From positions 365,418 to 401,616 of the forward strand of contig JACONK010000037.1 in NCBI GenBank assembly GCA_014323795.1: 36,199 nucleotides of DNA, in the 5' to 3' direction. Shown here in pieces: positions 4,259 through 25,640 of the stretch (position 1 is the stretch's first letter; every line of letters starts with the position of its first letter). The translations under genes were made by a program, and so were the position numbers. The notes beneath the pieces were generated by a model that did not search any database, was not told where the DNA came from, and was given only the letters and a program-made list of their open reading frames with translations. The stretch is from Paracoccaceae bacterium. GTDB lineage: Bacteria > Pseudomonadota > Alphaproteobacteria > Rhodobacterales > Rhodobacteraceae.

Positions 4259-4792
4259 TCACTCTCCCTCGATCATGTGCCGAATTTCCTCCAACTTTTG
4301 CCATATGTCCTCATTAGTCCTTTGTGTGCGCTCTGTATATTGCAGATACTCAACTACCCTTAAATTTCCCCAATTAGGGCCCCGCTTATTGAGCCCTGGT
4401 TCGATTATTTGGAGTAATATCGCTTCCATTCCTGTAAGTGCCTGAGTGAGGGATACTGGGATTCCATCTTCACCATCTTCCAGATTGCCGTCTGCGTTGG
4501 CGTCCAGCAAACCGAACCAAGAGAAGTTTGTCCACCTGTCCCTCATCTGACCCATCGAATGCTGTCGCAGCCGCTTGAGCAATCTTTGATCGCCGCTACC
4601 GGTCTGGCCTACGTAAACTGGTGCGCGGGTGCCGTCGTAAAGCACGTAGATCGCGATTTGTTCGCGAAAATCTACAACTACGTTTCCTCTCGTTCCTCTT
4701 AGCGTACCGCCTTGTCCGGGGCCGGGGGCACCCCATTCAATCAGTGTGCGGCTCCAATAGTGGCCGTAATTTTTTTTATTACAGACATTCAT
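4259..4792 (-). CDS. GIY-YIG domain protein with an EF-hand-like loop
   Basis: A 177-residue protein with a GIY-YIG nuclease-type core: AIYVLYD (47-53) and VYVGQTG (59-65) match the two signature strands. An Arg/Lys-rich helix follows (RLLKRLRQH, 70-78), then the motif WFGL (92-95), E123 in GMEAILLQ as the likely metal-binding glutamate, and N135 in LNKRG. Residues 97-108 (DANADGNLEDGE) fit a 12-residue EF-hand calcium loop pattern. A strong GGAGG site precedes the ATG, which lies 13 bases after the sucB stop, so it is translated with the TCA genes. Its base composition is clearly more AT-rich than the neighbours, suggesting acquisition. Substrate and role are unknown; a stand-alone nuclease or modified-DNA enzyme is possible. 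Confidence 0.8.
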   Translation of the reverse strand: MNVCNKKNYGHYWSRTLIEWGAPGPGQGGTLRGTRGNVVVDFREQIAIYVLYDGTRAPVYVGQTGSGDQRLLKRLRQHSMGQMRDRWTNFSWFGLLDANADGNLEDGEDGIPVSLTQALTGMEAILLQIIEPGLNKRGPNWGNLRVVEYLQYTERTQRTNEDIWQKLEEIRHMIEGE

Positions 4793-10375: not shown

Positions 10376-11500
10376 TCATGTTGCGCGCCCATGGCGACCC
10401 CTTCTGAACCGGAGGAATCGCCGCAGCCGGGTGACCCGCCGCGCCAAACGGGCTGGAATCCGTGGTGTCACGGGCGAAGGCGTCTCATACAGTGCGACGG
10501 CCAGTTCGGCCACCTGCCGGGAAACCCGGGGGCCGGGAACACGCGCCGGGGGGGGGGGGGGTTCCGGAAACAGTTCCGCCCGGTCAGGGAACCAGGCGGT
10601 GCGCAGGCGTTCATTGCTGTCGGCACAGGCGTTGCGAACCTTGCGAACCTGGCCTTGCGTCAGAACCGGTTTTTCATAGGTCCGATCCCGATCCAGTGTG
10701 TACAGTAATTTCGTAAAGCGGGCCACGGCAGGGTTCTTGTGACCGTTTTCCAGAAAGGCGGGATGCCCGGCGGCATGGGCGCACAGAATCTCAAGGGCCG
10801 CCCGGCTTAGCGATTCATTCAGGCGGTCGGGTATGATGAACCCGGTCTGATCCACCCCCAGCACCGCGGCGAAGTCAGCCAGCAAATCCCCGTCAATCAG
10901 CGCGTCAGGCTCCAGCAGGCGCACCTCCAGCGCATCCCGCCCCACAGCGGTGGCCCAACACTCAACCATTTTGAAATAATCGCGCCTGATAATCCGGCGC
11001 ATTACATCTTGCAGGGACGTGTTTGCCCCGCGCCGTATAGTTTGGGAATAAGCGGATGGGACGTACTCCTCTTGCCGCCGCAGATAAAGCACATAGCGCA
11101 CCTCCTCAAAGAATTCCGACAGGAATTGCGCCAGTGCGGTTATTTCTTCCCCGGTGCGCAGGGTTGCCGCAAGATTCTCGGCCGAGATCACATAGACACG
11201 CCCCTGCGCCGCCCGGACGGAGGCCCGGAACCGCGCCGTATGGGATTGGGCGAAGGCCCTCTGGCTTGCCTCATCCAGAACGCCAATTGCAGACCAAAAC
11301 CAACGGGACGGCAATTGCCGGCCCATACGGTCAAAGACACAGACGGCCAGTTCCGCTTGCGAGCTACTAGGAGCACCGGGGGCTGCCAGCCTGTCATACA
11401 CAACCCCCTGCCTGGCCAGGGCGACCTTATTGCGCTGCAACCAAGCCTGGATCGAGCTTGATCCGGCCTTGGGCATGCCAATATGGACAATTGCGTGCAT
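10376..11500 (-). CDS. Sulfotransferase-like protein, downstream copy
   Basis: A 374-residue protein that resembles the P-loop sulfotransferase superfamily. The N-terminal HIGMPKAGSSSIQAWL (6-21) matches the strand and loop that bind the 5'-phosphosulfate of PAPS, and the YVLYLRRQEEYVPSAYSQ segment matches the 3'-phosphate-binding region. There is no signal peptide or transmembrane segment. It is a tandem paralogue of the gene at 11513-12622: the first 43 residues differ at only 5 positions. Residues about 314-318 are a proline run encoded by a 14-base poly-C tract, so a one-base slip would alter the last ~56 residues, which include an Arg-rich end. Acceptor substrate unknown; surface glycan or lipid sulfation would be usual for the superfamily. 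It lies between sucC and sucD with 52 bases to sucD. Confidence 0.62.
   Translation of the reverse strand: MHAIVHIGMPKAGSSSIQAWLQRNKVALARQGVVYDRLAAPGAPSSSQAELAVCVFDRMGRQLPSRWFWSAIGVLDEASQRAFAQSHTARFRASVRAAQGRVYVISAENLAATLRTGEEITALAQFLSEFFEEVRYVLYLRRQEEYVPSAYSQTIRRGANTSLQDVMRRIIRRDYFKMVECWATAVGRDALEVRLLEPDALIDGDLLADFAAVLGVDQTGFIIPDRLNESLSRAALEILCAHAAGHPAFLENGHKNPAVARFTKLLYTLDRDRTYEKPVLTQGQVRKVRNACADSNERLRTAWFPDRAELFPEPPPPPARVPGPRVSRQVAELAVALYETPSPVTPRIPARLARRVTRLRRFLRFRRGRHGRAT
10548..10561. repeat. 14-base poly-G homopolymer (poly-C in the gene)
   Basis: Fourteen consecutive G on the plus strand, inside the downstream sulfotransferase-like gene. The corresponding tract in the upstream copy (11670-11678) is 9 G. 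The length difference shows the tract has expanded or contracted since duplication. Tracts of this length commonly slip during replication and sequencing, so exact length should be treated with care. Confidence 0.85.
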
Positions 11501-11512
11501 CCTGCGGCCCCT

Positions 11513-12622
11513 TTAGCCCTTTCTTCTGAACCGGAGGAATCGCCGCAGCCGGGCGACCCGCCGCGCCGCCGGGGCCGGAATCCGTGGTGTCACGGGCGAA
11601 GGCGTCTCATACAGTGCGACAAACAGTTCGGTTATCTGCCGGGAAACCATTGCACCGGAGACACGCGCCGGGGGGGGGAGTTCCGGAAACAGTTCCGCCC
11701 GGTCGGGGAACCAGGCCGCACGCAGGCGTTCATTGCCGTCGGCGCAGGCACTGCGCACCATGCGCACCTGGCGGTGCGTCAGCATTGGTTTTTCGTAGGT
11801 CCGATCCCGATCCAGCCTATACAGTAATTTCTTAAACAGGTCCACAGCGGGGTTCGTGCGGCCGTTTTCCAGAAAGGCGGGATGCCTGGCGTTATAGGCA
11901 CACAGGATCTCAAGCGCGGCCCGGCTTAGCGATTTGTTCATGTGTTCGGGGATGGTGAACCCGGCCTGATCCACCCCCAGCACCGCGGCGAAGTCAGCCA
12001 GCAAATCCCCGTCAATCAGCGCGTCAGGCTCCAGCAGACGCACCTCCAGCGCATCGGGCCCCACAGCTGCGGCCCACTGCCCGACCATTTTGAAATAATC
12101 GTTCATGATAACCCGGCGCATTGTATCTTGCAGGGAGGCGTTTTTCCCGCGCCGTATAGTTTGAGAATAGGCGGATGGAACGTAGTGCTCTTGCCGCCGC
12201 AAATAAAGCACATAGCGCACCTCCTGAAAGAACTCCGACAGGAATTGCGCCAGTGCGGTTATTTTTTCCCTGGTGCGCAGGCTTCCCGCAAAATGCTCGG
12301 CCGAGATCACATAGACCCGCCCCTGCGCCGCCCGGACGGAAGCCCTGAACCGCGCCGTATGGGATTGGGCGAAGGCCCGCTGGCTTGCCTCATCCAGAAC
12401 GCCAATCGCAGACCGAAACCCGCGGGCCCGGGCTTGCTCGCCCAAACGATCATGGACACAGACGGCCAGTTCCGCCTGCGCCGTAAAATGTTCGGCACCG
12501 GGGGCTGCCAGCCTGTCATACACAAACCCCTGTTTGGCCAGGGCGGCCTGATTGCGCTGCAACCATGCTTGGATCGAGCTTGATCCGGCCTTGGGCATGC
12601 CAATATGAACAATTGCGCGCAT
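11513..12622 (-). CDS. Sulfotransferase-like protein, upstream copy
   Basis: A 369-residue paralogue of the product of 10376-11500, with the same PKAGSSSIQ phosphosulfate-binding loop (10-18), the YVLYLRRQEHYVPSAYSQ segment and the Arg-rich C-terminus. It starts 12 bases after the sucC stop and is followed after exactly 12 bases by the second copy. The two spacers themselves are similar, so the duplication unit included the spacer with its ribosome-binding site. Its C-rich tract is shorter (9 bases), encoding ELPPPAR where the other copy has a five-proline run. Sulfotransferase fold is inferred from motifs; catalytic activity and acceptor are unknown. Confidence 0.62.
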   Translation of the reverse strand: MRAIVHIGMPKAGSSSIQAWLQRNQAALAKQGFVYDRLAAPGAEHFTAQAELAVCVHDRLGEQARARGFRSAIGVLDEASQRAFAQSHTARFRASVRAAQGRVYVISAEHFAGSLRTREKITALAQFLSEFFQEVRYVLYLRRQEHYVPSAYSQTIRRGKNASLQDTMRRVIMNDYFKMVGQWAAAVGPDALEVRLLEPDALIDGDLLADFAAVLGVDQAGFTIPEHMNKSLSRAALEILCAYNARHPAFLENGRTNPAVDLFKKLLYRLDRDRTYEKPMLTHRQVRMVRSACADGNERLRAAWFPDRAELFPELPPPARVSGAMVSRQITELFVALYETPSPVTPRIPAPAARRVARLRRFLRFRRKG

Positions 12623-13928: not shown

Positions 13929-14312
13929 CTACTCCTCCGATTCCAATACCTTCCGGGCCACGCGGAAACATTCCAGGGCCTGCGGTACCCCGCAATAGAT
14001 GCCCACCACATGCACGATCGCACGGATTTCCTCTTTGGTGACACCGTTGTTCAGGGCACCACGGCAGTGGATTTCCCATTCGTGCATTTTGCCGAGCGCA
14101 CCAATCATGGCAAGATTCATCATCGAGCGTGTCTTCGGCCCAATCACGTCGTCCGCCCATCCGAATCCCCAGCACCAGGCGGTCATTGCCTCCTGAAACG
14201 GTCGGGTGAAGTCGTCAGCGGCGGCAAGGTTTTTCTCAACATACTCTGCCCCCAGCGTGTTCTTGCGCTGTTCCAGGCCTGCTTTGAAGAGATCTTCGTC
14301 AAAAAAACTCAT
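13929..14312 (-). CDS. Carboxymuconolactone decarboxylase family protein (PcaC-like)
   Basis: A 127-residue all-helical protein of the CMD/AhpD-like fold. The C-terminal half carries the family signature: HEWEIHCRGALNNGVTKEEI, then HVVGIYCGVPQALECFRVA. It lacks the CxxC peroxidatic pair of AhpD, so it belongs on the PcaC side. 4-carboxymuconolactone decarboxylation is unlikely here because no other protocatechuate-pathway gene is present; members of this family often act as small decarboxylases, isomerases or accessory proteins in unrelated pathways. Its start overlaps the Rieske gene stop by 4 bases (14309-14312), so the two are translationally coupled and probably share a pathway. Confidence 0.85.
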   Translation of the reverse strand: MSFFDEDLFKAGLEQRKNTLGAEYVEKNLAAADDFTRPFQEAMTAWCWGFGWADDVIGPKTRSMMNLAMIGALGKMHEWEIHCRGALNNGVTKEEIRAIVHVVGIYCGVPQALECFRVARKVLESEE

Positions 14313-15466
14313 GTCCGTCTCCGTTTCGTAAAATCGCTGCTGTCAGCCCGCCGCGCCCCGGACCTGGTTCGGGGCTCCGATGCGCATGGCCCGTCCACCG
14401 CCTCACGCATCCAGCGCTGCAATGACAGGATCGAATGTTCAGAGTTCACCCCGCAGGCCGGATCCACAACAAGCGGTCCGGGCCGGTAGCCACGGGATTT
14501 GAGGCCCCTGTATACGCTCTCGACCAGCCGGATATCCTCTTCAACGGTGGTCTCCCGATCCTGGAGGGCGAGTTTGCGCACCGCCGCGCTTTCCTCCCCC
14601 CCGACAGAATACCAGCCGCGCCAGACCACCACGTTATCGGCATTGATGGCGCGCCAGTGATACGTGTTCAGCACATTACCCGGATAGACCTGGAAAGAAA
14701 ACATCGGCCACAGGAACCAGCTGGAATATTCATCCCAGTGCTTGAAACCCGAATGGATTTCGTAGGTCATCTTATCGAGGTTCTGACATTCCGTCGTGTG
14801 CCGCAGGCAATAGCCCTGGGGTTGGATATCGTAGGTTGCGGGCTGCACCACACCGGTAGAAAATGTGTGGTGGTTGAGCATACAATGGTAACATTCGGAG
14901 TAATTTTCCACCGACACCTTCCAGTTGCAGCGTTCCGGTATCTCCACCCATTCCAGTGGTCTTATATGCTTGTAATTCGGCACCCATTCTTCCAGCTGCG
15001 CACGGGCGTTCGGGTACCAAAATTCCATCGGTTCCGCGTCTTCATCCAGATTGACGAAGATAAATCCGAGGAATTCTTCCGTCCGCACCTCCGTCAGGCA
15101 CACGTCAGAGGTATCGAACCCGGCAACAGCACGGATGTTCGGCCCGCCTTTCATCTTGCCTTCCCAGTCGTAGGTCCAGGCGTGATAGGGGCAAGTGATA
15201 AGTTTGGTGCGCCCGGCCCCCTGCACCAGCTGGTGCGCGCGATGCTGGCAAACATTGTAGAACGCGCGAACTTTTCCATCGCGCCCACGGATGGCGAAGA
15301 TGCTTTCGCCTGCGATTTCGAACGTGGTGTATTCGCCGGGCTTCCCGATGCTGCCGCCATGGCAGGCGAACTGCCAGGTGCGGGCCAGCACCCCCTCACA
15401 TTCCTGCGCAAACACGCCGGGGTCGGTGTAATAGCGGGCCTCGAGCGATCTGATGGGCTGGTTCAT
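14309..15466 (-). CDS. Rieske non-heme iron oxygenase, betaine-demethylase type
   Basis: Oxygenase subunit of 385 residues. The Rieske [2Fe-2S] ligands are C73, H75, C92 and H95 (C-x-H-x16-C-x2-H). The mononuclear iron site is N188-x2-E191-x2-H194-x4-H199 (NYSECYHCMLNHH). This arrangement and the length match oxygenases that demethylate quaternary amines (GbcA-, Stc2- and HpbB-like), releasing formaldehyde. No reductase gene is adjacent, so electrons come from an unlinked partner. The last ~28 residues (from about DGPCASEPRTR onward) look unlike the family's normal end and are partly encoded by a 19-bp dispersed palindrome at 14356-14374. The gene overlaps both the regulator upstream and the CMD gene downstream by 4 bases. 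Substrate is inferred only from neighbours. Confidence 0.88.
   Translation of the reverse strand: MNQPIRSLEARYYTDPGVFAQECEGVLARTWQFACHGGSIGKPGEYTTFEIAGESIFAIRGRDGKVRAFYNVCQHRAHQLVQGAGRTKLITCPYHAWTYDWEGKMKGGPNIRAVAGFDTSDVCLTEVRTEEFLGFIFVNLDEDAEPMEFWYPNARAQLEEWVPNYKHIRPLEWVEIPERCNWKVSVENYSECYHCMLNHHTFSTGVVQPATYDIQPQGYCLRHTTECQNLDKMTYEIHSGFKHWDEYSSWFLWPMFSFQVYPGNVLNTYHWRAINADNVVVWRGWYSVGGEESAAVRKLALQDRETTVEEDIRLVESVYRGLKSRGYRPGPLVVDPACGVNSEHSILSLQRWMREAVDGPCASEPRTRSGARRADSSDFTKRRRT
14356..14374. repeat. 19-bp dispersed palindrome inside the Rieske gene
   Basis: CCCCGGACC-T-GGTTCGGGG: two 9-base arms with one mismatch around a single central base, preceded by CGCG. The same architecture occurs at 21876-21894. 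It resembles the CCCCGGA...TCCGGGG intergenic palindromes common in alphaproteobacteria (from memory). Here it lies within the coding frame and encodes about residues 365-371. Confidence 0.6.
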
Positions 15467-16356
15467 CCGGTGTCATCCTCAACATAGATGCCTAGCTGGT
15501 GTCGGCGTTTGTGGAATGTCTCGACCCTATCAACGATCTCGTCACTGGCAACGGCAATCACAAAGCTCATGAGCGTTTCCAAAAGCGCAATAGTTGAGAC
15601 AGAGGAAGGAAAGAACTGTGGCGTATCGGCAGAAACGACAAATCCATGGTCAGCCCCCACGATGACCGGGGAAGCGGCACTGTCGGATATGCCGACGATC
15701 TTCAGCCCCTGTTCGCGGGCCACTGCCATCGCTTTCACCACCTCTGCCCGGTAAGGTTTGCAGGTGATTGCGATCAGGATATCCCGGTGATCCGTGCGAG
15801 CCAGGTCATCAACAGCGGTGGAGCCGGGTCGGGGGATGGCGTGGAAATCGCTCATCCCCGTGGCAGCGAGGTAGCCGAAGTTGCTGGCGTTCGAATGGTT
15901 CACGCCGACGCCGAGGATATAGACCTTGCGCGAGGTCCAGATGTCTTTCGCGACGTTCCTGAGATCCGCCTCGGAGATGCCTGCGAAAGTGTCTTCGATA
16001 TTGCGAAATGCTGCGTCCAGCATGTCGTGGTAAAGTGCACCGAGCTGCCCGTCTTTGGAGAGTGATTGAAGCCAGCGTGCGCGATCAGGAAAGCTGCAGG
16101 GGCCGCTTCGGATGGCCTCGCGAAACGGGATACGGAAATCTTCAAAACCTTCAAAACCTGCCTGTCGCGCCAGGCGCACGACCGTGTTGGGTTTCACGTC
16201 TGCCGCTTCGGCGACGTCGCGCACCGATGAAATACCCACAGCATTGGGGTTTTCGAGCACCCAGGCCGCTGCCTTGCGCTGCTCCGGCGTCAGCTCGTCC
16301 ATCTTCGTCGAAAGTTTTGCCAGGATCGCGCCGGATGGTATAGACATATCATTCAT
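15463..16356 (-). CDS. RpiR/MurR-family transcriptional regulator
   Basis: A 297-residue repressor or activator with an N-terminal RpiR helix-turn-helix domain (about 5-80; SVRDVAEAADVKPNTVVRLA is the DNA-reading part) and a C-terminal SIS domain (about 125-265; VYILGVGVNHSNASNFGYLA), which binds phosphosugars or other small ligands. ATG 16356 (or 16347) is preferred over upstream starts because it restores the normal N-terminus and leaves a divergent promoter gap of 63 bases. No strong ribosome-binding site is visible. The gene is divergent from the dehydrogenase cluster and first in the Rieske operon, so it very likely controls both arms in response to a pathway metabolite. RpiR-type regulators have been seen beside other roseobacter osmolyte catabolic genes. 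Confidence 0.9.
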   Translation of the reverse strand: MNDMSIPSGAILAKLSTKMDELTPEQRKAAAWVLENPNAVGISSVRDVAEAADVKPNTVVRLARQAGFEGFEDFRIPFREAIRSGPCSFPDRARWLQSLSKDGQLGALYHDMLDAAFRNIEDTFAGISEADLRNVAKDIWTSRKVYILGVGVNHSNASNFGYLAATGMSDFHAIPRPGSTAVDDLARTDHRDILIAITCKPYRAEVVKAMAVAREQGLKIVGISDSAASPVIVGADHGFVVSADTPQFFPSSVSTIALLETLMSFVIAVASDEIVDRVETFHKRRHQLGIYVEDDTG

Positions 16357-16358
16357 GG

Positions 16359-16394
16359 TTGACGATGATACAAGTGTTGCGTATTGCCTGCAAC
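16359..16394 (+). promoter_or_regulatory. Candidate promoter and operator for the plus-strand catabolic arm
   Basis: TTGACG (16359-16364), a 17-base spacer and TATTGC (16382-16387) fit a sigma70-type promoter with a good -35 and a weak -10. The inverted repeat GTTGC-N9-GCAAC (16376-16394) covers the -10, the expected place for a repressor site of the adjacent RpiR regulator. A GAGGTG ribosome-binding site follows before the ATG at 16420. Confidence 0.4.
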
Positions 16395-16419
16395 CGGATT
16401 CTTTAAGTCGAGGTGTACC

Positions 16420-18876
16420 ATGGCCCAAGACCTTCCTTCCACCGCCCGCGTCGTGATTGTCGGGGGAGGTATTATGGGCTGCGGGCTGGCCTACCATCTG
16501 GCCCACGAGGGCTGGGGGGCGGGAACAGTCCTTCTGGAAAAGGCAGAATTGACGTCTGGTTCCACCTGGCACGCGGCGGGACAGATTACCCATTCTACTT
16601 CGTCCTTCGGCCTTGGCAGGATTGTGGATTACAACATCGGACTCTATTCCGGCACCCTTGAGGCGGAGACCGGGCAGGCGGTGACCTGGCACGGCTGCGG
16701 CTCTTTCCGGTTGGCCTATGACGACGATGAGATGGACTGGCTGCGCCATACATTAAGCGTGGGCCGGGCGTTGGGCTTCAATATTGATTTGGTGGGGACG
16801 GCGCAGATTGCCGAACTGCACCCCTTCTACAATCTTGACGGTGTACGTGGTGCCCTGCACACGCCGGACGACGGGCATGTGGATCCGTCAAATGTGACCA
16901 TGGCACTTGCCGCAGGCGCACGCACCGGGGGTGTGCGCGTATTTCGGCACTGCCGGGCCACGAATATCACGCAGCAGCCGTCAGGCGAGTGGCGGGTGGA
17001 TACAGAAAAAGGGGCAATCACTTGCGAGCATGTGGTGAACGCGGGTGGAACCTATGCCCGCCAGATGGGCGAGTGGTCGGGCCTGCAGTTACCCATGACT
17101 TCTATGACGCACCATTACTTCGTGACCGATCCGGTGCCGGAGTTTGCCGACCTCGACTACGAATTGCCGGTCATCCGCGATGACAAGCTGGTGTCCGGAT
17201 ACATCCGGATGGAACAAAAACGCGGGCTGATCGGTGTCTACGAAAAGGAAAACCCTAACACAGTATGGGAGGATTACTGCCCGTGGGAGGCGGAGAACGA
17301 GCTTTTTGAAGCGGACTACGACCGTATCATGCCATGGTTGGAGAACGCGCTGGAGCGCATGCCGATCCTGGCCGAACTCGGAATTTCGCGCGACGTACAT
17401 GGGGCGATTTCCCACCCGCCGGACGGCAACCCGATGGTCGGCCCGGCCCCGGGCGTACGAAACTACTGGTGCTGCTGTGGTACACAGATCGGTATCGGCT
17501 GGGGTCCCGGCCTGACGCGGGAGCTGGCACGCTGGATGGTGCATGGGTCTGCGGACATAAGCATGCGCGAATATGACCCGCGCCGCTTCGGTGACTATGC
17601 CGACAAGCCCTGGCAGGTAATTAAGGCCAGGGAAGATTATTGCCTGCGCCACGAGATTCCGTTCCCGCATTTCAACCGTCTTGCCGGGCGCCCGGTAAAG
17701 CCGTCTCCGCTCTATGAGACGCTTAAGGAGAAGGGGGCAGTTTATGAGGAGGTCTTCGGCCACGAGCGTCCCCGCTGGTTCGCGAAGGGAATTGAGCAGC
17801 GGGATTACTACGGTTTCAAGCGCACACCTGTCCACAACATGGTCGCGGCTGAATGCAGGGCCGTGCGTGAGGCGGCGGGGATAATGGATATTTCCGCTTT
17901 TACGAAGGTGGAGATCTCCGGGCCGGATGCGGGAATTTTCCTTGATCGGCTGGTTCCCAACAAACTCCCCCGTACCGGGCGGATCGGACTTACCCACATG
18001 CTGAACCAGCGTGGACGTATCGAGATGGAGGTCACAGTCGCCCGTCTGGCCGAAGATCGCTTTTATATCGTCTGTGCCGCGTTCTTTGAACAGCGCCTGC
18101 TGGATCACCTGGCAGCACAGCAGGGCACGGAGAATGTGACCATAACCCTGCGTTCAAACGACTGGGCGGCGATCACGCTGAACGGTCCGAAGGCGCGGGA
18201 GATCCTGTGTGCGACCACATCTCAAGACCTTTCAAACGCCAGCTTCCCCTGGATGTCGCTTCGCGAGATAGACGTCGCCGGTCACAAAATCCAGGCCTTC
18301 CGCATGTCATACGCAGGTGAGTTAGGCTGGGAATTCCATGGCCCGCACGACGCTGTCAAGGCCACCTATGGTGCGCTTTGGGCAGCAGGTGCGCCGCATG
18401 GCCTGGCCGATTATGGCAGTTTCGCCATGAACACGCTGCGGATGGAAAAAGGATTCAAGGGTGCCGGTGAACTGACCAACGAGGTTACGCTGCCAGAGGC
18501 GGATGTGATGCGATTTGTGAATCTTGACAAAAACTATCTGGGTGCCGAAGCCACTCGTGCAAGTATGAGCTCAAATACCAGGCCCTGGGTTTGTGCATAC
18601 CTGTCCATCGAACCCGACGGGGTTGAGGACGGCCACGGGGGTGAAGCCGTGCTGATGGGTGATCAGGTCGTCGGTTCCACCAGTTCGGTTGCCTATGGCC
18701 ACAGTGTCGGCACGATACTTGCTTTCGCATACGTGAAACCGGAGGCAGCGGAGCCCGGCACAGACCTTTCCGTCATAATCGCAGGCAAATCCCGGGCAGC
18801 GAAAGTGCTGGGTGAGCCTGCCTACGATCCGAAATCCGCGCTTCCGCGCACCGATGCAAAAATTGAAAAAATATGA
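16420..18876 (+). CDS. Dimethylglycine/sarcosine dehydrogenase-like flavoprotein with GcvT domain
   Basis: An 818-residue FAD- and folate-dependent N-demethylating dehydrogenase. The N-terminal DAO-type FAD domain has VIVGGGIMG (12-20) and STWHAAG (48-54), where H51 matches the histidine that binds FAD covalently in dimethylglycine dehydrogenase. A linking FAO-type domain follows (about 370-430), then the GcvT-like tetrahydrofolate domains (from about 450), which capture the one-carbon unit as methylene-THF. The start at 16420 has a GAGGTG site; the ATG at 16384 is too far upstream. It is the first gene of the plus-strand arm and overlaps the next gene by 4 bases. With the Rieske oxygenase it could remove successive methyl groups from a betaine. 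The substrate could be dimethylglycine, sarcosine or an N-methylproline-type compound. Confidence 0.9.
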   Translation: MAQDLPSTARVVIVGGGIMGCGLAYHLAHEGWGAGTVLLEKAELTSGSTWHAAGQITHSTSSFGLGRIVDYNIGLYSGTLEAETGQAVTWHGCGSFRLAYDDDEMDWLRHTLSVGRALGFNIDLVGTAQIAELHPFYNLDGVRGALHTPDDGHVDPSNVTMALAAGARTGGVRVFRHCRATNITQQPSGEWRVDTEKGAITCEHVVNAGGTYARQMGEWSGLQLPMTSMTHHYFVTDPVPEFADLDYELPVIRDDKLVSGYIRMEQKRGLIGVYEKENPNTVWEDYCPWEAENELFEADYDRIMPWLENALERMPILAELGISRDVHGAISHPPDGNPMVGPAPGVRNYWCCCGTQIGIGWGPGLTRELARWMVHGSADISMREYDPRRFGDYADKPWQVIKAREDYCLRHEIPFPHFNRLAGRPVKPSPLYETLKEKGAVYEEVFGHERPRWFAKGIEQRDYYGFKRTPVHNMVAAECRAVREAAGIMDISAFTKVEISGPDAGIFLDRLVPNKLPRTGRIGLTHMLNQRGRIEMEVTVARLAEDRFYIVCAAFFEQRLLDHLAAQQGTENVTITLRSNDWAAITLNGPKAREILCATTSQDLSNASFPWMSLREIDVAGHKIQAFRMSYAGELGWEFHGPHDAVKATYGALWAAGAPHGLADYGSFAMNTLRMEKGFKGAGELTNEVTLPEADVMRFVNLDKNYLGAEATRASMSSNTRPWVCAYLSIEPDGVEDGHGGEAVLMGDQVVGSTSSVAYGHSVGTILAFAYVKPEAAEPGTDLSVIIAGKSRAAKVLGEPAYDPKSALPRTDAKIEKI

Positions 18877-19967
18877 GCAATATACCGGACACAATGCGCG
18901 CGATGGTGCTGACCGGTCAGGGCGGCATGGAAGTGTACGAATTTCACACCGACTGGCCGGTACCAAAACCCGGTGCGGAAGACGTCCTGATTCGGGTGGC
19001 CGCCTGCGGATTGAACAATACGGACGTGAACACACGCTCCGGCTGGTATTCCAAGGCCGTAACGGGCGAAACTACCGGCGGTGCCTATGAGACCATCGAT
19101 AACGACGGTACCTGGGGCGGGGCACCACTGTCCTTTCCCCGCATCCAGGGCGCGGACGTCTGCGGGCACATTGTGGCGGTCGGCACCAATGTGGATACGG
19201 GTCGCATTGGTCAGCGGGTGATCACTGACAACTGGCTGCGCGACTGGGATGATCCGATGAACCGGGACAAAACCGCATACTTCGGATCGGAATCGGACGG
19301 TGGCTTTGCGGAATATACGAAGATCGATTACAGAAACGCGATCACCGTTAACTCGGCGTATTCCGATGCAGCGCTGGCGACGTTCTCCTGTTCCTGGTCA
19401 ACCGCCGAAGGGATGCTGGACCGTGCCGGCGTCGGCCCGGGCGACCGGGTGCTGATCACTGGTGCATCCGGTGGCGTCGGGTCGGCCCTGATCGGGCTGG
19501 CCAATCGGCGCGGGGCAATGACCATCGCCCTGGCATCGAAAGCCAAACACGCCGAAGTCGCGCCGCTGAACCCCACCCACCTGCTGCCGCGTGCTCCGGA
19601 CGACCTGCCGGAGGCACTAAAAGCGGCAACTGGTTTTGACAAGGTTACCGTCGTTGCGGACATCGTCGGGGGGCCGTATTGGGAGACGCTGATCAACGTG
19701 CTTGCCCGGGGCGGGCGCTACACCTGTTCCGGTGCTATTGCCGGGCCTATAGTCGAAATGGACCTGCGCACCTTCTACCTGAACGACCTCACATTCACCG
19801 GTTCCACCGTGATTGCCCCCCATGTGACCGAAAACCTCGTGAAATACATCGGGGCCGGGGAAGTCAAACCGGTGCTCGCCGCAACTTATCCGCTGGAACA
19901 GCTGCCAGAAGCACAGCAGGCTTTCATCGACAAAAAGCACACCGGAAACATCGTGGTGACGATGTGA
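18873..19967 (+). CDS. MDR-superfamily oxidoreductase (quinone reductase/alcohol dehydrogenase-like)
   Basis: A 364-residue medium-chain dehydrogenase/reductase. The N-terminal GroES-like domain contains VAACGLNNTDVNTR and GADVCGHIVAVG; the Rossmann NAD(P)-binding domain has VLITGASGGVGSALIGLANRRGA (AxGGVG type). The structural-zinc cysteine cluster is absent and the catalytic-zinc Glu of the usual GHE is replaced (CGHIV). A zinc-independent enoyl or quinone reductase type is therefore more likely than a true alcohol dehydrogenase. It is coupled to the flavoprotein gene upstream (ATGA overlap) and to the cupin gene downstream (GTGA overlap). The exact substrate is unknown. Confidence 0.85.
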   Translation: MSNIPDTMRAMVLTGQGGMEVYEFHTDWPVPKPGAEDVLIRVAACGLNNTDVNTRSGWYSKAVTGETTGGAYETIDNDGTWGGAPLSFPRIQGADVCGHIVAVGTNVDTGRIGQRVITDNWLRDWDDPMNRDKTAYFGSESDGGFAEYTKIDYRNAITVNSAYSDAALATFSCSWSTAEGMLDRAGVGPGDRVLITGASGGVGSALIGLANRRGAMTIALASKAKHAEVAPLNPTHLLPRAPDDLPEALKAATGFDKVTVVADIVGGPYWETLINVLARGGRYTCSGAIAGPIVEMDLRTFYLNDLTFTGSTVIAPHVTENLVKYIGAGEVKPVLAATYPLEQLPEAQQAFIDKKHTGNIVVTM

Positions 19968-20752
19968 ATGCGCTTGACCAGCTGCTGGAAGATGTGAGGT
20001 ACGCCCATGCCACGCACCCGCAGTCGGCAGATTTTAAGCCGTTCCCGGATGATCCGGAACCGGCCGCGCTGTCCGCCCCGCATCTGCCCTGTGCCGGGTA
20101 CTTTTACCGGGGCAGTGCCATGGTGGCTGATCCCGACACGTTTACCCGGGCGATCCGCCGTGCCGACGGACAGGCCAATTGGCGCAGAACCTGCGCCAAT
20201 ACATCAATCAGCGAAGACTTTCTGGACCGGTTCGGCTGCGACTGCATCATCGGTTGTGGCGGTACGTATCACAATGCACAGATGGCACGTTACATGGTAA
20301 CGCTGCCTCCGGGGCTTTACTATCCTTGGCATCACCATATGGCAGGGGTTCTGCAGGCCGGGGCTGCCGTTTGCCATGCGTCCATGCAATCCCATGCGAT
20401 GGAAACCGTGGACAGTTCGGTTCTGTGTTACGTGGTCTGGCGCAACCATCTGTGCCTGTCGCCCGTCCTGACCGAATCGACAGGTGCATTGGGGATGAGC
20501 CTGCACACCACCCTGTATGCCTTGCGCACCGCGCTTCGGGCATATGCCTGTGACCAAGCCCCTGATATTAAAGTGTTTTGCGGTCGGCTGATGGATGCGG
20601 CTGTGGCCAGGATACCTTTGCCACCCGGCCATCACCGGGGCGTGGATTCGCTGCCGGCGCAAGCGGCTCCGGCGACCCGGCCGCTTCTGGCCACCGCCTT
20701 CTGGCGCAGGTACCGGCTGGAAGCGAAATCCGGGATCGGAGCCAGCGCATGA
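19964..20752 (+). CDS. DddQ-like cupin (DMSP lyase family) lacking part of the metal site
   Basis: A 262-residue protein with a GTG start overlapping the previous stop (GTGA). The region SEDFLDRFGCDCIIG...GLYYPWHHH and the later HASMQSHAMETVDSSVLCYVVWRN match the conserved flanks of DddQ-type cupin DMSP lyases, which split DMSP to dimethyl sulfide and acrylate. The family normally has H-x3-E-x-Y and a further ~20-30 residues between HHH and the HAM histidine. Here HHHMAGVLQAGAAVCH joins the two directly, so the metal-binding Glu and Tyr are missing. About 88 residues follow the WRN segment, longer than the family's usual end. The frame is open and tightly coupled to both neighbours, so it is not an obvious pseudogene. 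It is either inactive, or has a changed function. Family assignment is from remembered motifs. Confidence 0.6.
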   Translation: MNALDQLLEDVRYAHATHPQSADFKPFPDDPEPAALSAPHLPCAGYFYRGSAMVADPDTFTRAIRRADGQANWRRTCANTSISEDFLDRFGCDCIIGCGGTYHNAQMARYMVTLPPGLYYPWHHHMAGVLQAGAAVCHASMQSHAMETVDSSVLCYVVWRNHLCLSPVLTESTGALGMSLHTTLYALRTALRAYACDQAPDIKVFCGRLMDAAVARIPLPPGHHRGVDSLPAQAAPATRPLLATAFWRRYRLEAKSGIGASA

Positions 20753-21852
20753 AAATCACACGCATCCGCATTTACAAGACCCCGTTGCCTTACGCGGATG
20801 GCTGCTATGCCTGGGGGGCGGGTAACCGGATAGAGGTCGCGCAGGCCTCGGTGGTGGTTATCGATACGGATGCGGGTCTGCAGGGATGCGGCGAGTTCAC
20901 ACCCTGTGGCGAAAATTATATGTTTGCGCATTCCGAAGGGGTAGAGGCGATCGCCCGGCTCATCGCGCCTGCGCTGCTCGGCGAAGACCCGCGCCAGGTC
21001 GCGCGGATGGAACGCCAGATGGACAGGCTGGTCCAGGGCCACGGCTACGCCAAGGCCCCCTTTGATGCCGCGTTCTGGGATATTCTCGGGCAGGCCACAA
21101 ACCAGCCGGTCTGGATGCTGCTTGGTGGCAAACTTACGGACGGTGCGCCCATGTACCGGGTTGTGCCTCAGTGCGGTATGACAGAGACCCGGGCCGAGAT
21201 GGATCGTCATCGTGCCAGCGGATATCGCCAGTTTCAGATCAAGGTCGGCGCGGATTGGGCAGCCGATATTGAACACATTCGTGCTACGGTTCCACTGCTT
21301 GAGCCGGGGGAGCAGGCCATGGTCGACGCCAATCAGGGGTGGCGTGTGGATGATGCGATCCGTGTGGCGCGGGCGACGAAGGATCTTGATTTCATCCTCG
21401 AACAACCTTGCCGCACCTATGAGGAGTGCCAGCAGGTACGCCGGGTGGTGGACCTGCCGATGAAACTTGACGAATGTGTGACAGGCCTTCAGGCTGCCCG
21501 GCGGATCGTGACGGACCGGGGAGCGGAAATCTGCTGCCTGAAAATCTCGAACCTCGGTGGTTTGTCGAAGGCGCGGCGGGTGCGGGATTATATGGTCGAT
21601 AACCGAATACCCGTGGTGGCGGAGGACACCTGGGGCGGAGAGATTGCGACCACCGTGCTGAGCCACTTCGCGGCCTCGACACCCGCGGAGTATCTGGTAA
21701 ACTCCACCGATCTGATGAACTATAATACGCGGTCGACTGGTATCGGTGGTGCCGCGGCACGGGATGGCCGGATTTATGCACCCGACGCAGCGGGTCTGGG
21801 GGTGGTGCCGGATTTCAACAGCCTTGGGCAACCGGTGGCGGACTATGCATAG
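20749..21852 (+). CDS. Enolase-superfamily (mandelate racemase subgroup) enzyme 1
   Basis: A 367-residue enzyme with the N-terminal capping domain and (beta/alpha)-barrel of the mandelate racemase/muconate lactonizing group. Acid/base lysines are K165 (FQIKVGAD) and K265 (CLKISNLGG). Metal ligands lie in VDANQGW, ILEQPC and KLDECV. The paired lysines and the missing first lysine of the usual KxK match proline-betaine epimerases and cis-3-hydroxyproline dehydratase-type members. ATG 20749 overlaps the previous stop and is preceded by GGATCGGAG. Likely reaction: epimerisation or dehydration of an amino-acid or betaine alpha-carbon. I cannot tell which from sequence alone. Confidence 0.85.
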   Translation: MKITRIRIYKTPLPYADGCYAWGAGNRIEVAQASVVVIDTDAGLQGCGEFTPCGENYMFAHSEGVEAIARLIAPALLGEDPRQVARMERQMDRLVQGHGYAKAPFDAAFWDILGQATNQPVWMLLGGKLTDGAPMYRVVPQCGMTETRAEMDRHRASGYRQFQIKVGADWAADIEHIRATVPLLEPGEQAMVDANQGWRVDDAIRVARATKDLDFILEQPCRTYEECQQVRRVVDLPMKLDECVTGLQAARRIVTDRGAEICCLKISNLGGLSKARRVRDYMVDNRIPVVAEDTWGGEIATTVLSHFAASTPAEYLVNSTDLMNYNTRSTGIGGAAARDGRIYAPDAAGLGVVPDFNSLGQPVADYA

Positions 21853-21875
21853 GGTTTGTGATAACAGCTGTCGCG

Positions 21876-21894
21876 CCCCGGATCGGATCAGGGG
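21876..21894. repeat. 19-bp dispersed palindrome between two enolase-superfamily genes
   Basis: CCCCGGATC-G-GATCAGGGG: 9-base arms with one mismatch and a single central base, the same design as 14356-14374 and also preceded by CGCG. It lies in the 93-base gap between the first and second enolase-superfamily genes, the only substantial gap so far in this operon, and may affect message processing or stability. Confidence 0.55.
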
Positions 21895-21945
21895 GTTCCC
21901 GGGGGCCAGGGTATTCCGGCCTGGGACCGGGATCGGCAGGGCCTC

Positions 21946-23052
21946 ATGAAAATCACACGCATGTCCGTCTATCACGTTGATTTGCCGCTGGAATATCCCT
22001 ACTGGCTCTCTGGCGGGCGGTTGAAGTTCGAAACGCTTGATGCAACTCTGGTAAAGGTCGAAACTGACGCGGGCCTCACCGGTTGGGGGGAAGGGACGCC
22101 TTGGGGCCATACCTATGTGCCGGCCCATGGGCCGGGCATCCGGGCCGGGCTACAAACGATGGCACCATTCATTCTGGGGCTTGATCCGCGCCGTGTGCTC
22201 GATGTGGAGCGGGCAATGGATCTTGCATTGCCCGGACACCTCTACGCGAAATCGCCCGTAGATATGGCATGCTGGGACATCGCCGGGCAGGCGGCAGGGA
22301 TGACGATTGCCGATCTGCTGGGCGGCGGCAGTCGTACGCGGCGACCGATTGCATCGTCTGTCGGCACCAAAACAGCGGAGGAAACGCGGGAGGTCATGGC
22401 TCGCTACCGCGACCGCGGCTACACCGCCCATTCCGTGAAGATCGGCGGGGATGTGGACCGCGATATTGAACGTATCCGGGATGTGGAATCGCACCGGCCT
22501 GAGGGAGAGATTATCCTCTACGACGTGAACCGCAGCTGGACGCGCCAGCAGGCACTGCGGGTGATGCAGGCGACCGAGGATCTGCGGGTGATGTTCGAAC
22601 AGCCATGCGAAACTTTGGACGATATCGCCGCTATCCGACCCCTGCACAGGGCACCGGTAAGTGTGGATGAGACGCTCGTAACTTTGCAAGACGCCGTGCG
22701 GGTCGCACACGATGGCCTGGCAGAAGTGTTCGGGATCAAACTCAACCGGGTGGGGGGGCTCACCAAGGCCGCACGAATGCGGGATGTGGCATTGAGCCAC
22801 GGCATCGACATGTTCGTCATGGCCACCGGCGGGTCTGTGCTGGCTGATACGGAGGCACTGCATCTCGCGGCTACAATCCCGGATGCCAACTGCCATGCGG
22901 TGTGGGCTTGCCAGGATATGTTGACAGTAGATATAGCTGGCGGTCGAGGTCCCCGAAACCTGGACGGACATCTGCATCTGCCGGAGGCACCGGGCCTTGG
23001 CGTTGCACCGGATGAAGATGCCCTGGGGTCCCCGGGGGCTGTTTATGTGTAG
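21946..23052 (+). CDS. Enolase-superfamily (mandelate racemase subgroup) enzyme 2
   Basis: A 368-residue paralogue with K165 (HSVKIGGD) and K265 (GIKLNRVGG) as acid/base lysines and metal ligands in LYDVNRSW, MFEQPC and SVDETL. After the second lysine it differs from copies 1 and 3: MATGGSVLADTEA replaces the EDTWGGEI/ECTWGSDI segment, so the substrate pocket is probably different. The first 17 bases of the gene are identical to copy 1, and CGGGATCGG lies 9 bases ahead of both starts, showing the start region was duplicated with the gene. Function: probably epimerase or dehydratase on a substrate related to that of its neighbours; specificity unknown. Confidence 0.83.
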   Translation: MKITRMSVYHVDLPLEYPYWLSGGRLKFETLDATLVKVETDAGLTGWGEGTPWGHTYVPAHGPGIRAGLQTMAPFILGLDPRRVLDVERAMDLALPGHLYAKSPVDMACWDIAGQAAGMTIADLLGGGSRTRRPIASSVGTKTAEETREVMARYRDRGYTAHSVKIGGDVDRDIERIRDVESHRPEGEIILYDVNRSWTRQQALRVMQATEDLRVMFEQPCETLDDIAAIRPLHRAPVSVDETLVTLQDAVRVAHDGLAEVFGIKLNRVGGLTKAARMRDVALSHGIDMFVMATGGSVLADTEALHLAATIPDANCHAVWACQDMLTVDIAGGRGPRNLDGHLHLPEAPGLGVAPDEDALGSPGAVYV

Positions 23053-23111
23053 TTGGGTCGGACAGTGCCGCCGCACCCCGGAGTTCACCCGGTCAGGGGT
23101 AAACATTGCGC

Positions 23112-23126
23112 TTTTGCGCCGCAAAA
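23112..23126. promoter_or_regulatory. Perfect 15-base palindrome upstream of enzyme 3
   Basis: TTTTGCG-C-CGCAAAA lies 16 bases ahead of the third enolase-superfamily start, in a 90-base gap. It could be an operator or small hairpin that sets separate expression of the last two genes. No promoter boxes are evident. The pattern is seen; the role is inference. Confidence 0.3.
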
Positions 23127-23142
23127 AGATGATGACATACTG

Positions 23143-24246
23143 ATGAGAATCAGCAGCATAACGCTTTGGCAGGTTCCACTCACCAGCCACGACACCTACT
23201 ATATGGCTGGCGGGAAGACCTGCGACACGGTCACCTCAACAATCCTGAGGCTCACAACAGATACCGGCCAAGAGGGCTGGGGAGAGGTATGCCCCATCCC
23301 CCGCTACCTGCCTGCCTATGCAGGCGGTGTCGCCCCGGCTATCGAAGAGCTCGCCCCGGTTATCCTGAACGCCAGCCCGGTGGGGCCGGAAGCACTGATC
23401 GCTGCCTGCGACGCCTGCCTGCCCGGCCACCACTATGCCAAATCGGTGCTCGATATCGCCTTGTGGGATCTCACCGGTAAGGCCGCTGGCTTGCCGCTTT
23501 ACGGATTGCTTGGCGGGCGGATGAACGAAACCATGCCGCTCTACCACTCAATCACCTGCGTAGCACCCGACGAAATGGCGCACATCGCCGAGGATGCCTA
23601 CGCCCAGGGCATCCGGCAGTTCCAGGTCAAACTCGGCGCGGACGGCAATTGGGAAGCCGACGTTGCCCGCCTGCGCAAAGTGCGGGAAGCCGTCGGGGAC
23701 GGCCCGCTTATCTACGGTGACTGGAACTGTGGCACGGATCCGCTGACGGCAACCCGCGTGGGCCGGGCAGTGCGGGACGAAGACGTCATGCTTGAACAGC
23801 CCTGTGCCACTATCGCCCAGTGTGCCCAGGTCAAGGACGCCTGCGGACTGCCCATGAAGCTCGATGAAACTGCCCATGACACCGCGACCCTGCTGGAAGG
23901 GGCCGGACGCGGTTGCATGGATGCGGTAGCCGTGAAATTGTCAAAGTTCGGCGGTCTCTCCGCAGCCCGCCAAGCCCGGGATCTCTGCCTTCACCTCGGG
24001 GCAAAGATGTGCGTGGAATGCACCTGGGGTTCTGATATTGTAACTGCAGCCGTGCTTCACCTTGCGGCCAGTACGCCGGGTCGCGGGCTTCTCAACACGT
24101 GCGACCTGTCGGGGTATGTCATCCCCCGCGTCGCCACTGATTGTCCGCTGCGCAAGGATGGCACCATTGCCCCGCCGAAAGGGCCGGGGCTTGGTATCAC
24201 GCCGGACCAGGACGTGCTTGGCACACCCGTCGCGGATTTCAGATAA
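23143..24246 (+). CDS. Enolase-superfamily enzyme 3 (hydroxyproline-betaine epimerase-like)
   Basis: A 367-residue member with K163 (FQVKLGAD) and K265 (AVKLSKFGG), the same numbering I recall for 4-hydroxyproline betaine 2-epimerase (HpbD) of a roseobacter. Metal ligands lie in YGDWNCG, MLEQPC and KLDETA; the ECTWGSDIVTAAVLHLAAST segment resembles DAWGGDIVSAACTHIAST of HpbD as I remember it. ATG 23143 is preferred to the ATG at 23053, which would add a non-conserved, Pro-rich leader, although the ribosome-binding site (AAAAAGA) is modest. It is the best clue to the pathway substrate, but HpbD identity is not proven. Confidence 0.82.
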   Translation: MRISSITLWQVPLTSHDTYYMAGGKTCDTVTSTILRLTTDTGQEGWGEVCPIPRYLPAYAGGVAPAIEELAPVILNASPVGPEALIAACDACLPGHHYAKSVLDIALWDLTGKAAGLPLYGLLGGRMNETMPLYHSITCVAPDEMAHIAEDAYAQGIRQFQVKLGADGNWEADVARLRKVREAVGDGPLIYGDWNCGTDPLTATRVGRAVRDEDVMLEQPCATIAQCAQVKDACGLPMKLDETAHDTATLLEGAGRGCMDAVAVKLSKFGGLSAARQARDLCLHLGAKMCVECTWGSDIVTAAVLHLAASTPGRGLLNTCDLSGYVIPRVATDCPLRKDGTIAPPKGPGLGITPDQDVLGTPVADFR

Positions 24247-24257
24247 GGGGATAAACC

Positions 24258-25640
24258 GTGGATAGTCTTTCAAATGCCTTCCCGACCCACGACCCGGAAT
24301 GGGTGCAGGACATGCACGCAAACCACTATTTGCAAAGCTGGTCCAGGCAGGGCACCCGGCCCCGGGTCATAGCAGGCGCGCAAGGGTCATGGTTCTGGGA
24401 TACGGACGGCAGGCGTTATCTGGATTTTCAAAGTCAGCTGGTAAACGCAAATCTCGGCCACCAGCATCCGAAGATCGTTCAGGCAATCAAGGATCAGGCG
24501 GACAAGCTCTGCTATATCGGCCCGGCGATGGGATCCGGTGTGCGGTCCGAACTCGCGGCACTGATGAACGAGATCACGCCGGGTGACATCTGTTCAACAT
24601 TTTTCACCACTGGTGGGGCGGCGGCGAATGAACTGGCGATCCGGCTCGCAAAACATTATACCGGGCGACCGAAGATCATCGCGCGGTACCGCAGCTATCA
24701 CGGGGCCACAGGCAGTACGCTCAGCGTGACAGGCGACCCGCGCCATCACCTGACAAGGGGCGATATGCCGGGGGTGGTGCGTATGCTTGATCCGTACCCT
24801 TATCGTATGTCCACCGGTCACACAGACCCGGCGGATTGCCCGGTATGCCAGGGCGGGCCGCATCTGGAAGAGATCCTGATGTACGAAAATCCGGCCACGG
24901 TGGCCGCCGTGATCCTGGAGCCTGTTGTGGGTACCAACGGCATCATTGTGCCCCCGGACGGTTATCTGACCTCGATCCGGGAGACGTGTGAAAAATACGG
25001 TATCCTGCTGATTGCTGATGAGGTTATGGCGGGTTTCGGGCGTACCGGTGCCTGGTTTGCGATGGATCACTGGGGCGTCGTGCCGGACATTTTGACGGGT
25101 GCGAAAGGGATTAATTCGGGCTATGTGCCGCTCGGCACTATGTCGGTGTCGAAAGTGCTCGCCGACTGGTTGCGGGATTATTCATTGCCGGGGGGGTTGA
25201 CCTATGCAGGCCACCCGCTTGCCTGCGCAAGCGGCGTGGCCGCAATTCGGACAATGCAGGAGGAAGGCACCCTGGCCCATGCCACCAGGATGGGGACAGT
25301 GATGCGGGCCAATCTGCGGGCGATGGCAGACAGGCATCCCTCTATCGGGGAGGTGCGCGGCAAGGGCATGTTCAACGGCATCGAACTGGTGAAGAACCGC
25401 GCCACGCGGGAACCCCTGGTGCCTTTTGCGGCCAAGGGGGCCGCGGCAAAACCGATGACAGAGATGATGGATTTTGCGATGGACGCCGGGCTCTACCTGT
25501 CTTTTTTCTCCAACGTCATCCGGTTGACGCCGCCGCTGAACATTTCGGAACAGGATCTGATGACGGGGCTGGAAATCCTCGACCTTACGCTGGAGATCGC
25601 GGACCGGGAAACTGGCCAGAACCGTTCGGGAAAAGACTGA
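24258..25640 (+). CDS. Class III PLP-dependent aminotransferase
   Basis: A 460-residue fold-type I aminotransferase. The PLP lysine is K283 (LTGAKGINSGYVPLG), the pyridine-contacting aspartate is in LLIADEVMAGFGRTG, and GGAAANELAIRLAKHYTGR binds the phosphate. Relatives use omega-amino acids, taurine, or alanine/pyruvate pairs. The start is GTG with AAGGGG 7 bases upstream. It lies 11 bases after enzyme 3 and is the last gene of the plus-strand operon. In the pathway it could remove the amino group once the nitrogen has been demethylated, or convert an aldehyde formed earlier. Substrate unknown. Confidence 0.9.
   Translation: MDSLSNAFPTHDPEWVQDMHANHYLQSWSRQGTRPRVIAGAQGSWFWDTDGRRYLDFQSQLVNANLGHQHPKIVQAIKDQADKLCYIGPAMGSGVRSELAALMNEITPGDICSTFFTTGGAAANELAIRLAKHYTGRPKIIARYRSYHGATGSTLSVTGDPRHHLTRGDMPGVVRMLDPYPYRMSTGHTDPADCPVCQGGPHLEEILMYENPATVAAVILEPVVGTNGIIVPPDGYLTSIRETCEKYGILLIADEVMAGFGRTGAWFAMDHWGVVPDILTGAKGINSGYVPLGTMSVSKVLADWLRDYSLPGGLTYAGHPLACASGVAAIRTMQEEGTLAHATRMGTVMRANLRAMADRHPSIGEVRGKGMFNGIELVKNRATREPLVPFAAKGAAAKPMTEMMDFAMDAGLYLSFFSNVIRLTPPLNISEQDLMTGLEILDLTLEIADRETGQNRSGKD

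Follow-up and report, generated by a model that had tools for sequence, protein, structure and literature searches.

What brings a DddQ-family cupin, a relative of the lyases that cleave dimethylsulfoniopropionate (DMSP), into one cluster with a Rieske oxygenase, a demethylating dehydrogenase, three enolase-superfamily proteins and an aminotransferase? The question is raised by ten predicted genes at positions 13,929 to 25,640 of a 36,199-nucleotide stretch of Paracoccaceae bacterium DNA (assembly GCA_014323795.1, contig JACONK010000037.1, positions 365,418 to 401,616; this whole stretch is called the window below), which belongs to a genome of 2.58 Mb in 37 contigs. Genes for a carboxymuconolactone decarboxylase (CMD) family protein, the Rieske oxygenase and an RpiR regulator lie on the minus strand, opposite plus-strand genes for an FAD/GcvT protein, an MDR-family oxidoreductase, the cupin, the three enolases and a class III aminotransferase. 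We favor, with a probability of about 0.62, the view that this is a betaine-demethylation and transamination operon under one RpiR regulator, and that it is the locus met in roseobacters as the dddQ neighborhood. The ten genes lie where the initial annotation had placed them and belong to the families it had named, as open reading frames (ORFs), Pfam and curated profiles confirm; also supported is its proposal that they form a catabolic unit for a betaine-type (N-methyl) compound, probably under one regulator, in that both arms are conserved along with RpiR and with a motif of the divergent gap. The features are as follows.

13929..14312, minus strand: CMD family protein, 127 aa (Pfam PF02627, 69 bits; TIGR02425, 119.8 bits, under the cut-off of 155.7)
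14309..15466, minus strand: Rieske non-heme iron oxygenase, alpha subunit (Pfam Rieske and Ring_hydroxyl_A)
15463..16356, minus strand: RpiR-family regulator (HTH_6 and SIS)
16359..16377, plus strand: promoter- or operator-like motif TTGACGATGATACAAGTGT, inside the 63-bp divergent gap
16420..18876, plus strand: FAD-dependent oxidoreductase with GcvT domain, dimethylglycine dehydrogenase-like, 818 aa
18873..19967, plus strand: MDR-family oxidoreductase (not AcuI)
19964..20752, plus strand: DddQ-family cupin, probably a fused relic of two tandem dddQ genes, GTG start
20749..21852, plus strand: enolase-superfamily protein 1, an optional part (PDB 2rdx, 690 bits)
21946..23052, plus strand: enolase-superfamily protein 2, an optional part found mostly with MDR (PDB 3eez, 721 bits)
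23143..24246, plus strand: enolase-superfamily protein 3, the query used for finding relatives (PDB 4mgg, 272 bits)
24258..25640, plus strand: class III aminotransferase, PRK06062 subfamily (taurine:2-oxoglutarate aminotransferase-like; PRK06062, 541.6 bits)

The starts of the RpiR and FAD/GcvT genes are our choice inside the longest ORFs. Genes overlap by four bases at five of the nine junctions (CMD-Rieske, Rieske-RpiR, FAD-MDR, MDR-cupin and cupin-enolase 1), and the remaining plus-strand gaps, from the end of enolase 1 onward, measure 93, 90 and 11 bases.

Gene-neighborhood analysis, which the initial annotation had proposed as a check, indicates that this grouping is not a chance arrangement. 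A search of named genomes with the enolase-3 alignment turned up 362 relatives, and we kept the best 80 (66-74% identical); 63 of these loci had enough flank for counting, the other 17 being left out for short flanks. Among the 63, all chosen by enolase 3, a Rieske gene is found in 61, an FAD/GcvT gene in 61 and an RpiR gene in 59. MDR and enolase 2 are each present in 49, the DddQ cupin in 34 and enolase 1 in 27, and eight loci are devoid of all four. Because the Rieske side is often cut off, the counts for CMD (at least 31), BADH-like aldehyde dehydrogenase (at least 17) and formaldehyde-activating (GFA) proteins (at least 16) are lower bounds. The aminotransferase is GSA-aminomutase-like in 52 loci and of the window type in seven; the two types are never found together, and four loci have neither. 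That they replace each other suggests one shared reaction. The counts include L068, on a record titled Oceanobacillus (a Firmicute), whose cluster probably reflects contamination or mislabeling.

A second sample was anchored on the Rieske gene, which matched at E<=1e-100 in 18 of 385 genomes of the class, giving 17 neighborhoods besides the window's own genome and sharing one record with the enolase-3 set. FAD/GcvT is present in 13 of the 17 and an aminotransferase in 10; L210, L211 and L221 are short contigs, and L215, L216 and L219 are without core parts. In five (L207, L212, L213, L214 and L220, 19-20 kb each) RpiR, Rieske, FAD/GcvT and aminotransferase stand together with no recognizable enolase. 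The core is RpiR, the Rieske oxygenase, the FAD/GcvT demethylase and the class III aminotransferase, often with the aldehyde dehydrogenase and CMD, and the enolases, MDR and DddQ are options. Three records were reached twice (L206/L105, L158/L065 and L056/L044); they are excluded wherever sequences are called distinct below, and duplicates still stand inside the counts 91/92, 95/95, 96/97 and 72/72. Two side observations concern the anchored loci. Behind the Rieske gene of L159 (18080-19634), and in similar places elsewhere, lies a pair consisting of a weakly arylmalonate-decarboxylase-like protein, under the Pfam cut-off, and a Sulfotransfer_5 protein, with relatives in 22 and 17 of the 107 anchored loci, respectively. 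In the enolase-less L213, an M24 protein related to DddP (3010-4272, minus strand; 304 bits against a cut-off of 600) is placed between the aminotransferase and CMD-aldehyde dehydrogenase genes, and none of the other 106 anchored loci holds a relative of it at 80 bits or more.

The cluster is found in many Alphaproteobacteria, and some copies are carried on plasmids. That of Roseovarius THAF8 has the core, enolase 3, aldehyde dehydrogenase, CMD and a Pot-like ABC transporter, and those of Sulfitobacter SK012 (a conjugative plasmid) and Mesorhizobium 131-2-5 combine the core with enolase 2, MDR, aldehyde dehydrogenase and CMD. In Mesorhizobium the core is adjoined by genes for a ferredoxin reductase, electron transfer flavoprotein (ETF) and an Opp-like ABC transporter; relatives of this reductase occur in five of the 107 anchored loci, one of them weak. 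An enolase-3 orthologue (>=63% identity) was found in only six of 33 congeneric genomes, the window's own counted, which together with the plasmid copies shows that the cluster moves or is often lost.

A second line of evidence comes from the divergent gap. The consensus TTGACGATGGTACAAATGT (TTGACGATGGTACAwwTGT), followed by TTA.CCTGTCGA, recurs across the divergent gaps, and the window site is two mismatches off. Among 86 distinct gaps, 78 have a best site with at most 4 of 19 mismatches, and the best site starts with TTGA in all 86, a count that picking the best site favors; the commonest 8-mer occurs in 52 of 92 gaps and in at most six in 50 shuffles, which ignore kinship. This recurrence supports common control without proving it. 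With a pattern written around the window site, the window genome gives an exact match at that site alone and four further sites, all with three mismatches; its backward control is empty. Across another 11 genomes or plasmids the additional sites likewise have three mismatches (backward controls: two matches in G167, four in G036, none elsewhere), and seven of eight inspected three-mismatch sites, one of them from the window genome, lie inside predicted ORFs, not all of which are likely genes. The exception is the Mesorhizobium plasmid, where a site with one mismatch (286547-286565) stands about 57 bp before the annotated start (286490) of the Opp-like permease gene; the cluster's own gap site there has three mismatches, and the annotated binding-protein gene is set apart on the cluster's other side. 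RpiR is probably the one regulator of both arms, whose co-regulation is predicted. In the near relatives L240 and L241, a site is placed at the start of a gene that by eye resembles trimethylamine methyltransferase.

The core enzymes point to the chemistry. The top solved relative of the Rieske protein is carnitine monooxygenase 6y8j (202 bits, residues 12-351). Quaternary-ammonium Rieske oxygenases such as CntA, Stc2 and GbcA have Glu, not Asp, at the bridging position before the mononuclear-iron ligands. Going by this general rule and a position taken from the alignment with the carnitine enzyme, the window protein has that Glu: it reads NYSECYHC, NYxECYHC is kept in 92 of 92 distinct relatives, and the Asp form occurs in none of 95 loci. 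The protein is probably a quaternary-ammonium demethylase or a C-N cleaving enzyme. The FAD/GcvT protein is closest to dimethylglycine dehydrogenase (DMGDH; 4pab, 501 bits), and its TWHAAG motif recurs as TWH(A/S)AG in 93 of 94 distinct relatives. The aminotransferase exceeds the PRK06062 cut-off of 472, which places it in that subfamily, and matches PDB 6jix at 376 bits.

We arrive at betaine demethylation because the Rieske protein is nearest to carnitine monooxygenase and keeps the Glu motif and because the FAD/GcvT protein is nearest to DMGDH, and also because GFA proteins and BADH-like aldehyde dehydrogenases accompany the family and a ferredoxin reductase and ETF adjoin the Mesorhizobium core. 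We take it for an operon since Rieske, FAD/GcvT and aminotransferase genes (the last in 59 of the 63 loci) are kept together and since the gap motif is conserved and repeated before the Mesorhizobium permease gene. What the sequences show directly is the gene content and its conservation, the shared motif, the catalytic motifs of the Rieske, FAD/GcvT and enolase proteins, the optional character of the modules and the missing metal-site Glu of DddQ; chemistry, step order, regulation and substrate class are all predicted from sequence. A quaternary N-methyl compound would enter through a transporter encoded elsewhere, and the Rieske oxygenase would take off one N-methyl group as formaldehyde or cleave the C-N bond. 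The FAD/GcvT protein could then remove a further methyl group and hand it to tetrahydrofolate, after which the class III aminotransferase would remove the freed amino group and an aldehyde dehydrogenase, encoded in many relatives and not in the window cluster, would oxidize the carbonyl. Enolases, MDR and DddQ may serve as optional entry modules that feed related substrates or stereoisomers to this core.

Which betaine would be degraded is a matter of weighing versions of the same core reading. One candidate is an acyclic, hydroxylated omega-betaine, for instance carnitine or the head group of a betaine lipid, which could pass through dehydration, reduction of the C=C bond, demethylation and transamination to an aldehyde. 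This would agree with the carnitine monooxygenase as nearest solved relative of the Rieske protein, and the omega-type aminotransferase and the BADH-like aldehyde dehydrogenase of relatives would fit a course from primary amine to aldehyde to acid. However, a match of 202 bits does not fix a substrate, no carnitine-specific gene was recognized among the ten, and the best curated match of all three enolases is an enzyme of a ring imino acid, cis-3-hydroxyproline dehydratase; we regard this version as possible, if rather doubtful. That match leads instead to the complete route for a cyclic or hydroxy amino acid that the initial annotation had read from the nine enzymes, in which the enolases would epimerize or dehydrate (hydroxy)proline betaine and the Rieske and FAD/GcvT proteins would demethylate it. 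Conserved Lys and Asp/Glu/Asp columns, which we take to be the two catalytic Lys and the metal-ligand positions of the dehydratase, are kept in all three enolases, which are also kin to PDB 4e8g, presumably hydroxyproline betaine 2-epimerase (HpbD). In several relatives the cluster lies next to genes for an Opp-like ABC transporter, the type to which, by the title of a paper, the proline betaine transporter Prb of S. meliloti also belongs. Yet enolases 1 to 3 score 383.7, 316.5 and 324.3 bits against the dehydratase model NF043002, all under its curated cut-off of 500, and 4e8g is the top match of none, ranking 9th, 6th and 3rd. Core loci without enolase occur, and a class III aminotransferase would, on general knowledge, not be expected to act on a ring imino acid. 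Genes of the proline racemase and DHDPS families, partners beside one annotated cis-3-hydroxyproline dehydratase, are absent from the window cluster. With enolases, MDR and cupin optional, the cupin apparently decayed, and no Rieske reductase among the ten genes, the single complete route is not supported, and a proline-type betaine seems to us an unlikely substrate. The weight left over by these candidates and DMSP is assigned to no substrate.

The cupin itself is informative through its decay. PF16867 matches it at 28.3 bits, above the gathering score of 27, over profile positions 47-114 of 162 only; what had been annotated as a DddQ-like cupin belongs to the family but looks like a relic. 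In the alignment of 33 relatives it is 20 residues shorter than the L031 protein and lacks the stretch with the metal-site Glu, and HxHx(2-3)E is kept in 69 of 69 distinct DddQ relatives of at least 140 aa. According to excerpts of PMC5395565, the metal ligands of DddQ are two His and one Glu in motif 1 and one His in motif 2. The 88-residue tail behind the cupin looks like a second DddQ of the L055/L056 type that lacks its middle part: it resembles the start (SLHTTLYALRTALRAYACDQAPDIKVFCG compared with L055) and the end of such a protein. In local alignment with L055, the C-half scores 69 (reached in none of 2000 shuffles) and the N-half 43 (4 of 2000); with L056 the values are 50 (3 of 2000) and 39 (19 of 2000); these two were picked after the alignment had been inspected. 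The ordinary DddQs L104 and L091 give no signal against the tail (218 to 627 of 2000 shuffles as high), a family-wide profile gives only 10.1 bits (E 0.006; best of 200 shuffles 5.9), and one global alignment put the second half of the tail elsewhere. L056 has the order MDR-dddQ-dddQ-enolase 1, with two DddQ genes at the place of the window cupin, and this order fits a fusion of two tandem copies. In the AlphaFold model (mean pLDDT 69), most of residues 1-120 is confident, the region around the deletion and junction is at about 65, and values fall below 50 from residue 207. Probably, then, the window cupin consists of two tandem dddQ copies that have decayed and become fused in frame; the frame perhaps stays open owing to the overlap of its stop with the start of enolase 1. 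An assembly error may also lie behind the two deletions, at about 20320-20700. A functional DMSP lyase was considered for this gene and rejected, and we expect no DMSP-lyase activity from its product because the metal-site Glu is missing. The whole genome holds no other PF16867 match; it carries dmdA (483 bits against a cut-off of 410). DddQ seems to have been lost by decay in this genome, where the other cluster genes look intact. The cupin was matched in 25 other genomes, 20 of which supplied the 20 family regions examined. One locus deserves separate mention: L031 (8100-13792) has CMD opposite MDR-DddQ, followed by genes that by eye are TRAP transporter-like, and the 20 kb taken around it holds no Rieske, FAD/GcvT or enolase match.

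The window cluster corresponds, by gene content and order, to the roseobacter dddQ neighborhood itself. The cluster of Silicibacter/Ruegeria lacuscaerulensis ITI-1157 (L104) encodes the DddQ of PDB 5jso, letter for letter over the compared stretch, and that of Roseovarius nubinhibens ISM (L091) encodes two DddQ-type cupins together with the compared stretches of the solved chains 2rdx (enolase 1) and 2qdd (enolase 2). The initial annotation had suspected a link between dddQ neighborhoods and hydroxyproline-betaine clusters; the dddQ part of this stands, the ten-gene cluster corresponding to such a neighborhood, and the hydroxyproline part comes down to family kinship. That enzymes of unknown function belong to the DddQ-like cupin family is already stated in the title of a paper by Lei et al. 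(2018). No paper on the pathway was found in the literature searched, from which subscription papers were excluded, so that it need not be unpublished.

Should the locus then be read as a DMSP-cleavage operon, in which DddQ releases dimethyl sulfide (DMS) and MDR and other enzymes handle the acrylate? A solved DddQ is encoded in the orthologous R. lacuscaerulensis cluster, excerpts of PMC3338564 link dddQ of R. pomeroyi and dddQ1/dddQ2 of R. nubinhibens to an MDR gene, and those of PMC5395565 report induction of dddQ by DMSP. However, the cupin is missing from nearly half of the 63 loci and apparently decayed in the window, whose genome has dmdA, and no part in DMSP cleavage is known for the Rieske, DMGDH-like or aminotransferase proteins. 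The window MDR scores 32.5 bits against the AcuI acrylyl-CoA reductase model NF051456 (cut-off 440); the excerpts of PMC3338564 place dddQ away from acuI and report that the MDR gene of R. nubinhibens did not relieve the acrylate sensitivity of an E. coli yhdH mutant. The Km of DddQ for DMSP is given as 22 mM in the excerpts of PMC5395565. We consider a DMSP operon highly improbable. A further scenario, one we hold tentatively and at less than even odds, is that the dddQ locus encodes an undescribed betaine-degradation pathway and that what the cluster DddQ truly acts on in the cell is one of the intermediates of this pathway or a sibling substrate, namely a carboxylate carrying an alpha-proton and a beta-leaving group. 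The cleavage of DMSP would then be a side activity, which would explain the 22 mM Km, and strains like that of the window would drop DddQ and keep the pathway.

Several points weigh against the betaine-operon reading or limit it. It rests on sequence, from which its enzyme reactions are predicted. The Rieske and FAD/GcvT proteins score far under the listed curated equivalog cut-offs, so the exact reactions given for them are putative. Ten Rieske-anchored loci have an aminotransferase, and six of these ten proteins are only 41-44% identical to the roseobacter type and may catalyze a different reaction. The ten genes include no transporter, as the initial annotation had seen, and neither a Rieske reductase nor an aldehyde dehydrogenase. 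DddQ relatives also occur away from the cluster (for example, L033, L036 and L048), and some DddQs do act on DMSP in vivo: excerpts of PMC5395565 give a DMS loss in dddQ mutants of 97% in R. pomeroyi and 20% in R. nubinhibens.

As to its setting, the cluster adjoins genes of the tricarboxylic acid cycle (sucC, sucD, 2-oxoglutarate dehydrogenase E1 and E2, and lipoamide dehydrogenase). Its GC content is level with that of the flanks and shows no step at the edges, so that composition gives no support for an island, the term under which it had first been described. Two tandem paralogues of 374 and 369 aa lie between sucC and sucD (10376-12622, minus strand), and a 177-aa protein, GIY-YIG-like by eye, between the E2 and lipoamide dehydrogenase genes (4259-4792, minus strand); none of these has a Pfam match. 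At 35610-36095 (minus strand) there are repeats rich in glycine and aspartate, RTX-like by eye.

A conserved betaine-type operon was already partly known as the dddQ neighborhood; new here are the split into core and options, the common promoter-like motif with its Mesorhizobium transporter link, and the probable fused relic in the place of DddQ. Ocean metagenome studies count dddQ as a DMSP-lyase gene (excerpts of PMC5395565). Should DddQ frequently prove an optional accessory of a betaine operon, part of what these counts record may be betaine use, and decayed genes such as the window copy would enter them as false positives. For roseobacters, and for a Lotus-associated Mesorhizobium that carries it on a plasmid, the conserved core also offers a route for an osmolyte containing nitrogen, one that can be tested directly.

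Set against known systems, the window cluster is closest to those of R. lacuscaerulensis and R. nubinhibens, with which it shares orthologous RpiR, Rieske, FAD/GcvT, MDR, enolase and class III aminotransferase genes in like order. These two carry a GSA-aminomutase-like aminotransferase, whereas the window carries the taurine type; L104 is without enolase 1, L091 has an extra enolase and a small cupin, and DddQ is intact in both (two copies in L091), unlike the probable relic in the window. With the glycine betaine and carnitine Rieske oxygenases (GbcA and CntA), the window protein has the domain layout and the Glu-containing mononuclear-site motif in common, but the GbcA model NF058607 matches it at 140.1 bits over residues 7-200 only, against a cut-off of 670, the carnitine enzyme matches it at 202 bits, and no reductase gene lies among the ten. 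The FAD/GcvT protein has the architecture of dimethylglycine dehydrogenase, aligning over residues 8-802 of 818, yet reaches no curated equivalog cut-off. The enolases, of which the third is 65-74% identical in 10 family loci, belong to the fold family of the cis-3-hydroxy-L-proline dehydratase and hydroxyproline betaine epimerase group and keep its Lys and metal-ligand columns, whereas their scores fall under the cut-off and their genomic partners differ from those of the one annotated case compared.

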